Shown here: positions 53,650 to 58,077 of the stretch, piece after piece
How the letters are laid out: every line of letters starts with the position of its first letter
Numbering within the stretch: position 1 is the stretch's first letter
Source: Maribacter sp. BPC-D8
GTDB lineage: Bacteria; Bacteroidota; Bacteroidia; Flavobacteriales; Flavobacteriaceae
Direction of reading: 5' to 3'
NCBI RefSeq assembly: GCF_035207705.1
Contig: NZ_CP128187.1
Coordinates: 434,001 to 498,000 of the forward strand
DNA: 64,000 nucleotides
Notes under the pieces: generated by a model
The model's input: the letters and a program-made list of their open reading frames with translations, nothing else
The model's database searches: none
What the model was told of the DNA's origin: nothing
Program-made: the position numbers and the translations under genes

Positions 53650-55044
53650 TCATTCTGTTTTCTCTCTACGTTTCTTCCTCCAAGGCGCATTAATCTGAAA
53701 ATCTCCAGCCATAATGCAACCATAAGGCATTACTTTATCAATTATCTCTCCTAAACCGTATTCTTCCATTTGAGATCGAACCGTTTGAGCATTTTTATAG
53801 GCACTAGGCAATTCGGAAATATCAATCTCCTTAGAAAAGAAACGTACATCTAAACCTTCAGTTTCCAAATCGAACAAGGCTTCTTTCGTAAAATCTGCAT
53901 TGTTTCTTTTGTGCTGGGTACGGCTCATATTTCTACCTGCACCGTGTGGGGCAAAACCTAAGTTGTTTCCTGTTGTTTTACCTTCCACAATTAAAACAGG
54001 TTCTGCCATATTCAAAGGTATTAATCTTGGTCCGGAAATATCAGGCATAAATTTAGCATCCAACGGAGTTGCGCCTTTGGCATGGTAAAACAAATCTCCG
54101 TCTTTGAAAACAAAGTTATGCTCATTCCAATATCTGTCTTCAGCTTGCATTGCCAATACATCTAATGTAGCGTTGTGAATACATTCATGGTTTAACTTGG
54201 TCCATTTTCTTATCGTCTGTAAAGCACTCCAGTACAATTGCCCTTCTTCAGTTTCGAAAGGGATCCAAGCATTTTGTTTTAACGCAGCAGGACATAAATC
54301 TTTTCTAAACCGTTCAGCGATGTGCATTCCTTTTTTATATAACCTAGCTCCTGGAGCTCTTGATCCGTGATGCGTAATCATCATAGTATTACCAGTTTTT
54401 TCTGAAATACCAACAAATAAGAAGTGATTGCCATCACCTTGAGTACCTAAATGTTCTATTGCAAGGCTTATATCTTTAGGTGCATTCAATAGCTTATTGG
54501 CTTTAAACTCTGCTGATAATTCTTCAGTCAATTGAAATTGTTTTCCACGTGGTCTGCCACCTGGTCCAAAATGCGTAATTGAATACGCAGCGTCTAAAAC
54601 CAGTTTTGGATCCATTTTTCCGAAATCGGTTAACATTACCGAGCAACAAATATCTGCACTATGCATACCTGGGTGTATAGCATTCTTTGCTACTACAACA
54701 CCACCAACGGGAATTGTACCTAATGGTCCCGTAGGGCATGCATCTGGCATAACCGCGCCATTAACTACCGTAGGTGTGCGCATTAAAACTTTCATGGAGT
54801 CGACTACTTTTGTCACATTGGTCTCTTCCAATTCATTTTCGGCTTTTATATTTATTGCGAATTCTTTAGCGTTAGAATACAGGTTGATCATAGGTGGTAA
54901 ACGATATTGCTCTAAGAACGCGTTCATAGCTTCTCCTTCTAACTGGTTTGCGTTAATGTATTCTATGGCTTCTGGAAACCATTTTCCTGATCGAAAACCT
55001 AAATCGATTAATTCTTTTCCTGTGATGTTTACTGTATTTTTCAT
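53650..55044 (-). CDS. rtcB: RNA ligase RtcB
   Basis: RtcB joins RNA ends with 2',3'-cyclic phosphate or 3'-phosphate to 5'-OH ends, using GTP and Mn2+. The 464-residue protein has the metal ligands in [15 protein letters not shown] (Asp, Cys), [10 protein letters not shown] and [18 protein letters not shown]. The guanylated His is probably in [17 protein letters not shown]. It ends the minus-strand RNA-repair cluster but is set apart from the nucleotidyltransferase genes by 131 bases that hold its own operator-like site and a structured leader. That suggests both read-through and separate transcription. Confidence 0.96.
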
Positions 55045-55059
55045 AATTTCTTTTAATTA

Positions 55060-55118
55060 GCTCTGCCGACTCCATTCGTTCAGCAGAGCGCTACATGAAG
55101 ACTGTTTAACTCGTCTTC
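55060..55118 (-). promoter_or_regulatory. Structured 5' leader of rtcB (two hairpins)
   Basis: In the transcript of rtcB, GAAGAC/GUCUUC (55113-55118 with 55097-55102) forms a 6-bp hairpin. Seven bases later, GCUCUGCUGA/UCGGCAGAGC (55080-55089 with 55060-55069) forms a 10-bp hairpin with a 10-nt loop, ending 15 bases before the ATG. Neither is followed by a T-run, so they are not simple terminators. A role in translation or mRNA stability is possible. Confidence 0.6.
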
Positions 55119-55147
55119 TTTATGATTCTGGTACAAACTTGCGACTC

Positions 55148-55172
55148 ATGTGCGCAATTATTTTGCGTAGTT
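55148..55172. promoter_or_regulatory. Second, degenerate copy of the WYL-locus operator upstream of rtcB
   Basis: The right arm TGCGTAGTT (55164-55172) and the left arm ending in GCGCA (55148-55156) are separated by 7 bases (ATTATTT). On the minus strand it reads ACTACGCA-AAATAAT-TGCG, almost identical to the perfect palindrome upstream of the nucleotidyltransferase genes. In both cases a TTTGTA box starts ten bases after the palindrome. It is about 100 bases upstream of the rtcB start. Confidence 0.7.
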
Positions 55173-55175
55173 GAA

Positions 55176-56228: not shown

Positions 56229-56962
56229 TTGGTCAAGGTTTTATATAAAAAACTATCTATTCTATCCGTATCAGGTTTTCCGCCAGAAAGTGATTTTGCA
56301 TACTTCTCGTTAGTACAAATGACTCTTGTTATGAGTTCTATGACCTTTTCATTTCTAGAATGTAGATAACTTTCGTTATTCTCTGATTTAATAGCCATCA
56401 AATTTCTTATTTCATCCTCTTCATCCTTTTTAACCAGAGATAGCATTTTACTAAAAACAACTGGTGGCATTGTATTATGTTCCAGTATCCATTTACCCGC
56501 CAAAGCTGTTCGTAATGCATAAAATAAACTCTTTAGTTTTACTTTTTCATCCGTTAGTTTTTCTTCATATTTTTTGCTCATACTTAAATAATGGTACATA
56601 CAAGCTATTGAAGAAAAGCAATCTTCAGCTATGGTTCTAAGTTCTTTTATAGATTCACTTTCCTCAATATAAGTTATAGGAGAAAATAGATGCTCTAAAG
56701 CAGGTACGTTTGACTTTTTAAGAAGACGGAGCTTCTTTCTAAGTTCCCAACCAACAGTGTCAAAATCACCATCCATGATATCGATAGTATCCTTTTTTTC
56801 TGAAACAGATAGATACCAGTCTAAAGGATGAGTGTAAACAAATCGAACATCGTAGTCGCTATCTGGTGATGCAAATCCCCAAGCTCTGCTTCCTGATTCG
56901 CAAGCAAAAAGGATATCTACTTTTTTATCTTTTGCTAAATTGTTTAGTTTGTGTATCATCAT
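56225..56962 (-). CDS. Second polymerase-beta-type nucleotidyltransferase, RNA-repair locus
   Basis: This is a paralogue of the next gene with the core GSRAWGFASPDSDYDVRFVY and a helical C-terminal part; it is 245-246 residues long from the chosen start. The start at the ATG ATG pair (56957-56962) is preferred: the longer frame to 57061 would run over the operator-like palindrome and into the divergent regulator gene, and its first 33 residues look unlike coding sequence. It is the first gene of the minus-strand operon. It could form a heterodimer with its paralogue or act on a different RNA end. Confidence 0.85.
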   Translation of the reverse strand: MMIHKLNNLAKDKKVDILFACESGSRAWGFASPDSDYDVRFVYTHPLDWYLSVSEKKDTIDIMDGDFDTVGWELRKKLRLLKKSNVPALEHLFSPITYIEESESIKELRTIAEDCFSSIACMYHYLSMSKKYEEKLTDEKVKLKSLFYALRTALAGKWILEHNTMPPVVFSKMLSLVKKDEEDEIRNLMAIKSENNESYLHSRNEKVIELITRVICTNEKYAKSLSGGKPDTDRIDSFLYKTLTK

Positions 56963-56974
56963 TTCTCTAATTAT

Positions 56975-57038
56975 GATACAAATATGACAATGTACTACGC
57001 AGTTATTTTGCGTAGTAAGGATCGATGTGTTATTTTTA
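56975..57038. promoter_or_regulatory. Divergent promoter region with perfect 9-7-9 inverted repeat (candidate WYL-regulator operator)
   Basis: TACTACGCA (56993-57001) and TGCGTAGTA (57009-57017) are perfect inverted arms around 7 bases. On the minus strand a TATTTG(TA) box, like the Bacteroidota -7 element TAnnTTTG, follows 8 bases after the palindrome, and no TTG is found at the usual -33 distance because the palindrome covers that place. On the plus strand TTG at 57008-57010 and TATTTTTA at 57031-57038 (20-nt spacing) would form the regulator's own promoter, overlapping the operator. This fits autoregulation and control of the nucleotidyltransferase operon. Confidence 0.7.
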
Positions 57039-57054
57039 TTAAAAATGAATCCGA

Positions 57055-58077
57055 ATGGCAATCAATAAAAATGCACTTATCCGTTATAAAACCATTGATA
57101 AATGTCTTCAGAATACATACCGTCAATGGACATTAGATGATTTAATCGAAGCTTGTTCAGATGCCTTGTATGAATATGAAGGGCGTGAAATCAATGTAAG
57201 CAAGCGTACCGTGCAAATGGATATTCAATTAATGCGAAGTGATAAGTTGGGTTATAATGCACCGATAAAAGTTTACGATAAAAAATATTACAAGTACGAA
57301 GAGGATGAGTATTCCATTACTGATATTCCTATAACAGAAAATGATATAAACGTACTTTCTGAGACTGTAGAAATGCTAAAACAGTTTAAAGACTTTTCAT
57401 TATTTTCTGAATTAGGGGGTATTATTCAACGTCTAGAAGATAAGGTCTACACAGAAAAAACACATCAAGCTTCAATCATTCATTTAGATAAGAACGAGAA
57501 TTTAAAAGGACTTCATTGGTTAGATGAACTTTACCAAGCAATTCAGAAAAAAATAGTGCTAAAATTAGAGTATCAATCATTTAAAGCAAAGCAGTCTGGG
57601 TTGATTCAATTTCATCCTATATTATTAAAAGAATTCAATAATCGATGGTTTCTAATTGGTAAAGGGGCAAAATCTAGAGGGATTGTTAATCTAGCTCTAG
57701 ACCGTATTAAAAGTGTTGATTATAATTTTGTTGAGCCTTATATTCAAGAAGATTTTAATGCAGATGAGTTTTATAAAAATGTTATTGGCGTTACCGTAAA
57801 CCAAGGAGAAAGAGCAGGTAATGTAAAATTGTGGGTACATCAAAGGCACGCACCATACGTAGAAACAAAACCTTTGCATCATTCGCAATGTATTGAAGAA
57901 ATAAATGAAGACGGTAGCATAGTTATAGGTATTAAGGTCAAATTGAATTTTGAGTTAGAACGAATTATACTGGGCTACGGAGAAGCTATGAAGGTTTTGC
58001 AACCTGAACGATTAATTAAGCGTATTGCTCTACGAGTCAATAGAGCAAAGAAGTTATACGATATTGAGCCATCTTAA
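57055..58077 (+). CDS. WYL-domain transcriptional regulator of the RNA-repair locus
   Basis: This 340-residue regulator has an N-terminal winged helix (NKNALIRYKTIDKCLQNTYR, WTLDDLIEACSDAL, then ISV-type VSKRTVQMDIQLMRS). A WYL ligand-binding domain covers about residues 140-225, with LKLEYQSFKAKQSGLIQFHP and NNRWFLIGKG, and a WCX-type C-terminal part follows. WYL regulators sense nucleic-acid ligands in several DNA-damage and defence systems. The gene is divergent from the nucleotidyltransferase/rtcB genes and shares their promoter region. It most likely senses broken RNA or its fragments; that is inference. Confidence 0.92.
   Translation: MAINKNALIRYKTIDKCLQNTYRQWTLDDLIEACSDALYEYEGREINVSKRTVQMDIQLMRSDKLGYNAPIKVYDKKYYKYEEDEYSITDIPITENDINVLSETVEMLKQFKDFSLFSELGGIIQRLEDKVYTEKTHQASIIHLDKNENLKGLHWLDELYQAIQKKIVLKLEYQSFKAKQSGLIQFHPILLKEFNNRWFLIGKGAKSRGIVNLALDRIKSVDYNFVEPYIQEDFNADEFYKNVIGVTVNQGERAGNVKLWVHQRHAPYVETKPLHHSQCIEEINEDGSIVIGIKVKLNFELERIILGYGEAMKVLQPERLIKRIALRVNRAKKLYDIEPS

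Follow-up and report, generated by a model that had tools for sequence, protein, structure and literature searches.

Operator-promoter architecture and a hairpin leader at an RtcB-RlaP RNA-repair locus with a divergent WYL regulator in Maribacter sp. BPC-D8

How might RNA damage be sensed, and RNA repair controlled, in bacteria that lack RtcR? The question is raised by a locus of Maribacter sp. BPC-D8, which offers a regulator, two exact sites, predicted transcription starts and a compact leader RNA with which to approach it. The window analysed here is the 64,000-nucleotide stretch 434001-498000 of the single-contig 4.78-Mb genome. Within it lie rtcB, for an RNA ligase, rlaP1 and rlaP2, for two RlaP nucleotidyltransferases, and the divergent gene wyl, for a regulator with WYL and WCX domains (Table 1). 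The initial annotation of the window had regarded these genes as one locus sharing an operator-promoter arrangement, and our results support that view. They add a structured leader before rtcB, an operator placed on the -33 box of wyl, and a wider set of operator-bearing genes in relatives. On balance we favour a reading in which the WYL regulator activates the rtcB and rlaP promoters through the operators, and limits its own gene, in response to a signal of RNA cleavage.

Two operators at a fixed distance from the promoter

Operator O1 is symmetric and reads TACTACGCA-GTTATTT-TGCGTAGTA, with perfect 9-bp arms. Operator O2 reads ATGTGCGCAATTATTTTGCGTAGTT and differs from the O1 palindrome in 5 of 18 letters. 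Both the perfect 25-nt palindrome and its second copy were found where the initial annotation had placed them, as were the minus-strand TTTGTA boxes (56982-56977 and 55137-55132), with exactly 10 nt between box and site in both cases. The description of the second copy as degenerate has to be abandoned; O2 is not a relic but a conserved site of rtcB type, and the same asymmetric form, CTACGCAAAATAATTGCGCA, precedes rtcB in many relatives. In the relative L003, whose WYL protein is 97% identical, rtcB lies directly beside wyl and the asymmetric form is the operator between them. No rlaP gene was found there within the 11 kb of sequence examined, and probably the two rlaP genes and their symmetric operator either were inserted between wyl and rtcB or, in L003, have been lost from there.

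With up to three mismatches allowed, the 18-letter palindrome occurs at one place in the genome, where it is exact (O2 falls outside this limit), and the reversed control pattern occurs at two. A loose match to the palindrome therefore means little and, since the palindrome alone does no better than its reversed control, it is the exactness of the site and its distance from the promoter that carry weight. For the operator joined to TTTGT at fixed distance, O1 and O2 are the two exact matches genome-wide, and there are three more at two mismatches; the reversed operator with TTTGT gave no match in the same search of the whole genome. Many unrelated copies, which the initial annotation had named as a possible objection, are thus not present.

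The flavobacterial -7 box is given as TAnnTTTG at -12 to -5 in PMC9723704, and the predicted starts of the rtcB and rlaP transcripts (Table 1) follow from applying this rule. Relative to these starts both operators are centred at about -31. Among 68 distinct 220-nt regions before rtcB, the site is present in 63 at no more than 3 of 11 mismatches and in 61 at no more than one. The offset of TTTG from the first base of CTACGCA in these 61 promoters is 33 in 49 and 34 in 11, and the remaining offsets from 18 to 60 contain eight TTTG altogether; all offsets in this range were counted, since an earlier count had taken the TTTG nearest to 33.

Alignment of 64 loci on the operator showed that on the wyl strand the right half of the site contains TTTG, followed after about 19 nt by TAnTTT, a normal -33/-7 pair; 20 nt separate the two boxes in the wyl promoter of the window. 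Where a -33 box would be expected on the divergent strand, the sequence is AAAA. By this alignment, the operator covers the -33 box of wyl and occupies the place of one at the divergent genes.

Co-occurrence of the operator and the WYL regulator

A scan of genome contigs confirmed 506 WYL relatives, and the best 80 of these were kept as loci, so that close relatives are over-represented among them. The regions before wyl, up to 300 nt each, were taken from 109 loci and the window and gave 103 distinct sequences. The pattern CTACGCA-N7-TGCGTAG, at no more than 3 of 14 mismatches, is present in 65 of the 103 (12 without mismatch) against 5 of 2060 shuffled regions. The palindrome, whose conservation in front of homologous loci the initial annotation had treated as decisive, is therefore conserved there. 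In 53 of the 65 site-bearing regions the site ends 36-41 nt before the start of wyl.

Searching 299 genomes of the family gave 61 with a WYL hit at E≤1e-30. A close WYL group of 39 genomes was delimited by the gap between E=6.4e-100 and 2.6e-67, a boundary chosen after the results had been seen; 22 of the other 260 genomes have a WYL hit too, a more distant one. With one mismatch at most, 66 places in 38 of the 299 genomes fit the operator-promoter pattern (reversed control, 13 places in 13), and these genomes comprise 33 of the 39 close-WYL genomes and 5 of the 260 others. Four of the six close-WYL genomes that were missed (G117, G144, G206 and G285; loci L101, L096, L098 and L100) have a spacing of 34, which lies outside the pattern. 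RtcB of this type is likewise found in 33 of the 39 close-WYL genomes and 3 of the 260 others; second rtcB-like genes of relatives, with about 29% identity, were excluded from these counts. At the sequence level, site, spacing and co-inheritance are in this way apparent.

An exact operator-promoter match at G195:C6:197060-197097 lies in a genome where the WYL search gave nothing at E≤1e-30. The sample contains two genomes of the same genus as the window, G075 and G286; at the thresholds applied, both are devoid of the WYL gene, of RtcB of this type, of the operator pattern and of the leader, so the locus is patchy in distribution and perhaps mobile.

The regulator and the repair proteins

The WYL regulator scores above cut-off for both PF13280 (39.7 bits) and PF25583 (48.4 bits). 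No Pfam helix-turn-helix hit was obtained at 0.001; several orthologues carry the source annotation helix-turn-helix regulator, and, over 65 close orthologues, conservation reaches 90% or more at 60 of the N-terminal 81 positions. Profile matches of the protein include DriD, PafB/PafC and further WYL structures, and lie mostly in the C-terminal half.

In RtcB the motifs GDGNHF, HHGSR and HGAGR align with solved RtcB chains, as does a DICC stretch, a piece that is not significant alone; the NCBIfam equivalog cut-offs were not reached. Membership of the RlaP family is indicated by PF10127, which is above cut-off for the products of both rlaP1 and rlaP2. For RlaP, restoration of lost nucleotides ahead of ligation is predicted (PMC7824862).

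Activation or repression

The WYL regulator would bind CTACGCA-N7-TGCG(T/C)A(G), presumably as a dimer, and the symmetry of the operator points to a homodimer, which is the form of DriD but not of PafBC. When liganded it would activate the rlaP1-rlaP2 and rtcB promoters by taking the place of the -33 contact, in the way of PafBC at its own promoters; this is suggested by the position of the site at an absent -33 box and at near-fixed distance from the -7 box. Since the divergent wyl promoter has its -33 box within this same site, the regulator may limit itself. The signal would most likely be a product of RNA cleavage, because what is produced serves to ligate RNA (RtcB) and to repair its ends (RlaP), and the rtcB transcript would start with a conserved hairpin leader, a mark of the transcripts of this regulon. 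Binding, activation and signal are what we infer from these arrangements, and we consider the whole somewhat better than an even prospect.

The nearest mechanism is probably that of PafBC, a WYL activator that works by sigma adaptation, reprogramming RNA polymerase at the promoters it controls (PMC11804915). With PafBC and DriD, which are DNA-damage WYL activators, the Maribacter regulator shares the WYL-WCX architecture; it differs from them in its targets, which are RNA-repair genes, and in one arginine of the pair discussed below.

Several observations weigh against activation of this kind. The -33 boxes of this phylum are often poor, which makes a missing -33 box weak evidence, and CapW is a WYL protein that represses. 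The site is missing from 38 of the 103 regions before wyl; in 21 of these a c2 gene is present in the locus, in 17 it is not. The c2 gene stands between operator and wyl in loci such as L004-L006, and in c2-gene loci without a nearby site it may carry the site farther up. This type of RtcB is missing from 6 of the 39 close-WYL genomes. A further WYL repressor, BrxR, is among the known regulators of the class, and in PafB and PafC two arginines, R-x-x-R, are needed for binding single-stranded DNA (ssDNA), both according to PMC11804915. In the alignment, A214-L-D-R217, invariant in 65 WYL members, stands against R-L-D-R of DriD chain 8tp8, which probably equals the PafBC arginine pair. The R-x-x-R pair of the ssDNA-sensing type (PafBC/DriD) is thus not found here, the first Arg being Ala and the second seemingly kept. 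The invariant Ala suggests that the ligand of this regulator may differ in kind from ssDNA.

A serious competitor, to which we attach a lower probability, is that the WYL protein acts at all three promoters simply as a repressor, sitting over their -33 regions and released by its ligand, as is presumed for BrxR and as TrcR acts on rtcB and tRNA genes. The sites do overlap the -33 region of all three promoters, and TrcR represses a similar set, rtcB with a tRNA array and a slipin gene (PMC10272220). TTTG at an offset of 33 or 34 in 60 of 61 rtcB promoters, together with the absent -33 box, nevertheless exceeds what a repressor would need. It is improbable that the sites belong to another DNA-binding protein, with wyl a mere neighbour or another target. 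The exact site of G195 is in keeping with another binding protein, but the division of the pattern between close-WYL and other genomes and the regular distance of the site from wyl both argue for the WYL protein.

A conserved hairpin in the rtcB leader

The predicted leader of the rtcB transcript contains two hairpins, H1 and H2 (Table 1). Its fold has a z-score of -3.80, with 1 of 200 shuffles as good, and model R1 scores it at 84 bits, the window being one of the training sequences of that model. The H1 region has a mean z of -1.35 over 64 leaders, 13 of them below -2, and in some leaders another fold is better than H1.

Covariation was assessed in 50 distinct leaders, the window included, drawn from 72 regions upstream of rtcB; those dropped had no site by the search expression (8), were short (7), had a weak hairpin (5) or were duplicates (2). 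Five of the eight regions dropped as site-less (L014, L029, L031, L035 and L053, among 81 sources) have a leader farther from rtcB. Compensatory changes are seen in 8 of the 10 pairs of H2, and 99.2% of the 500 cells pair, a share which, like that of G-U among the remainder, is inflated by the selection for strong stems. Cells changed on both sides number 76 of 500, against 19.7 in shuffles, and 0 of 500 shuffles were as high. The number of pairs changed on both sides (8) was reached by 54 of 500 shuffles and the other four measures by none, and slid versions of H2 pair in 31-47% of cells. Hairpin H2 is accordingly visible in the sequences themselves, and 35 of its 39 non-Watson-Crick cells are G-U, which argues for an RNA structure. 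That H2 acts instead at the DNA level, for example as another site for a protein, is hardly credible: inverted repeats bound by dimers also stay symmetric, but G-U predominates among the cells that are not Watson-Crick (though the selection score for leaders allowed G-U), H2 lies inside the predicted transcript, and its loop varies in length from 7 to 12.

Model R1, at E≤0.01, finds the leader in 30 of the 299 family genomes, all 30 with a close WYL orthologue and this RtcB, which corresponds to 30 of 39 close-WYL genomes against 0 of 260 others. Over 395 genomes of the phylum it gave three matches, all in the same family and one of them this genome, a count from a one-family model that may miss distant forms. 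The leader is not obligatory, being missing before rtcB in some loci (for example L032, L054, L066, L068, L069 and L087). The leader with its conserved hairpin would mark the transcripts of the regulon.

Several identities for the leader were considered and rejected. Rfam covariance models gave no match over the leader up to E=5, which speaks against a known RNA element. An attenuator is not indicated, the sequence behind H2 being A-rich without a T tract; the terminator scan was empty there, though its loop limit of 8 misses H2. A CsrA target was suggested by GGA in the loops, and PF02599 was not found in the genome (it was found in 3 of 14 control genomes). Translational control was rejected as the sole role, since the leader also precedes tRNA genes and untranslated RNAs cannot be served in that way. 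Mimicry of the sarcin-ricin loop or tRNA D-arm, or pairing as an anti-Shine-Dalgarno partner, was judged by eye only, and the loops are too variable.

Other genes preceded by the operator or the leader

In relatives the operator is found before tetratricopeptide repeat (TPR) genes (L104, L105 and L107), a 3'-5' exonuclease gene (PF00929; L032) and the gene for a 595-aa protein of unassigned family (L028, L055 and L076). Operator and leader occur together ahead of tRNA genes and of Band_7 genes (PF01145), the latter in L143 and L024, where 0.9-1.1 kb separate the leader copy from the gene. Genes for tRNA-Pro and/or tRNA-Tyr come after the leader in L147-L150, L160 and L039, and tRNA-like RNAs in L144 and L145.

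The tRNA-like RNAs (L145:8158-8269 and L144:2231-2341) have normal acceptor, D and T arms, with 46-51 nt in place of the anticodon loop or arm; that of L145 is followed by repeats of AGTTCCTA. A protein of 595-624 aa (L042:676-2463, L145:8457-10331) without a convincing Pfam match is encoded behind the tRNA-like RNA in L145 and has its own operator elsewhere; it is possibly an RNA-binding scaffold. Arrays of 7-17 tRNA genes lie in or near WYL-RtcB loci (L142:10622-12514, L143:14430-15754, L144:3016-4734 and L025:564-1510), at least seven tRNA genes being present in 4 of 22 loci scanned, and in L144 an operator-promoter lies about 0.75 kb before the array.

Behind H2, 8 of the 11 leaders that do not directly precede a coding gene carry GTTC(T/A)T(T)(A/G)A. 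It resembles the GTTCATTGA boxes of this genome, which occur as three pairs 2.2 kb apart, presumably in rRNA operons. The boxA-like GTTCTTTAA is found behind H2 at L029:304-390 and in L039, L144, L145, L147, L148, L149 and L160, and within 60 nt behind H2 in 0 of 52 rtcB leaders. It is a possible antitermination signal.

In L029 a Barstar-like gene (3703-4203), of the RNase-inhibitor kind, lies between leader and rtcB within the RNA-repair operon. Flavo-1 RNAs (RF01705) occur near some loci (L150:279-361, L160:8927-9001 and L160:6115-6186).

Relation to known systems

The RtcB repair genes of the proteobacterial rtcBA operon are under a dedicated damage-responsive regulator, RtcR (PMC7790460, PMC9650030). 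The Maribacter locus resembles this in joining RtcB repair genes to a dedicated regulator. RtcR, however, is a sigma54 activator with a CARF domain, whereas here a WYL regulator would act at a sigmaA-type promoter, and RlaP stands instead of RtcA. Neither RtcR nor RtcA is encoded next to rtcB, and RtcA was not found among the six locus proteins scanned; the search for the two proteins went no further into the genome.

RtcR-independent control of rtcB is known elsewhere. The closest published parallel found is TrcR of Anabaena, a ribbon-helix-helix repressor that controls rtcB and a tRNA array; under this one regulator stand rtcB, spare tRNAs and a slipin, and a similar set occurs in relatives of our locus. 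The difference lies in the type of regulator, and WYL is absent from the text of PMC10272220. That rtcB, spare tRNAs and Band_7/slipin genes stand under TrcR, and in relatives seemingly under the unrelated WYL protein, suggests a recurrent programme of repairing or replacing the tRNA.

A broader and rather unlikely reading would extend the preferred activation to an RNA-damage regulon across the Flavobacteriaceae, in which the WYL protein senses cleaved RNA by a pocket unlike the ssDNA type and induces RtcB and RlaP, together with spare tRNAs and tRNA-like RNAs in relatives. The hairpin leader would then be a binding module for the repair complex or an RNA that the cell reads as damaged; as a module it may be a reduced counterpart of the tRNA-like RNAs it precedes elsewhere. 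Burroughs and Aravind (2016) reportedly described RNA-repair systems in which RtcB is joined by RlaP, Band_7 and tRNA-like RNA partners. Titles and abstract openings of the published literature, subscription papers apart, gave no account of the operator or the leader.

Organisation of the locus

The features of the locus are collected in Table 1. The wyl gene has a single match in the whole genome, and the nearest WYL protein among named records is from an uncultured Maribacter (97%). The neighbours of rtcB are rlaP2 and a family-5 glycosidase gene.

Table 1. Genes, operators, promoter elements and leader structures, in window positions
Feature	Position	Strand	Remarks
Operator O1	56993..57017		symmetric; between rlaP1 and wyl; also over -33 box of wyl
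Operator O2	55148..55172		asymmetric rtcB-type, TTGCGCA half
rlaP -7 box	56979..56986	-	CATATTTG (consensus TAnnTTTG); predicted transcription start ~56974
rtcB -7 box	55134..55141	-	CAAGTTTG; predicted transcription start ~55129
TTTG within O1	57007..57010	+	at -33 position of wyl promoter; logo of 64 loci
wyl -7 box	57031..57038	+	TATTTTTA
rtcB 5' leader RNA (predicted)	55045..55129	-	85 nt; fold -24.8 kcal/mol
Leader hairpin H1	55097..55118	-	6 bp; variable in relatives; weaker support
Leader hairpin H2	55060..55089	-	10 bp; GGA in loop; covariation on 50 leaders
wyl	57055..58077	+	WYL-WCX regulator of 340 aa, divergent; above cut-off for PF13280 and PF25583
rlaP1	56225..56959	-	RlaP nucleotidyltransferase, 244 aa from this ATG; PF10127 247.3 bits
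rlaP2	55176..56228	-	second RlaP-type nucleotidyltransferase, 350 aa; 4-nt overlap with rlaP1; PF10127 101.2 bits
rtcB	53650..55044	-	RtcB-family RNA ligase, 464 aa; PF01139 127 bits
Terminator-like stem and T tail	53568..53606	-	~44 nt 3' of rtcB; one found against a mean of 2.4 in shuffles, hence weak

Positions 58164-61601 of the window form a single frame of 1145 aa with VIT, carboxypeptidase-regulatory, TonB-plug, TPR and DUF2135 domains, and frames akin to it sit behind wyl in some relatives.

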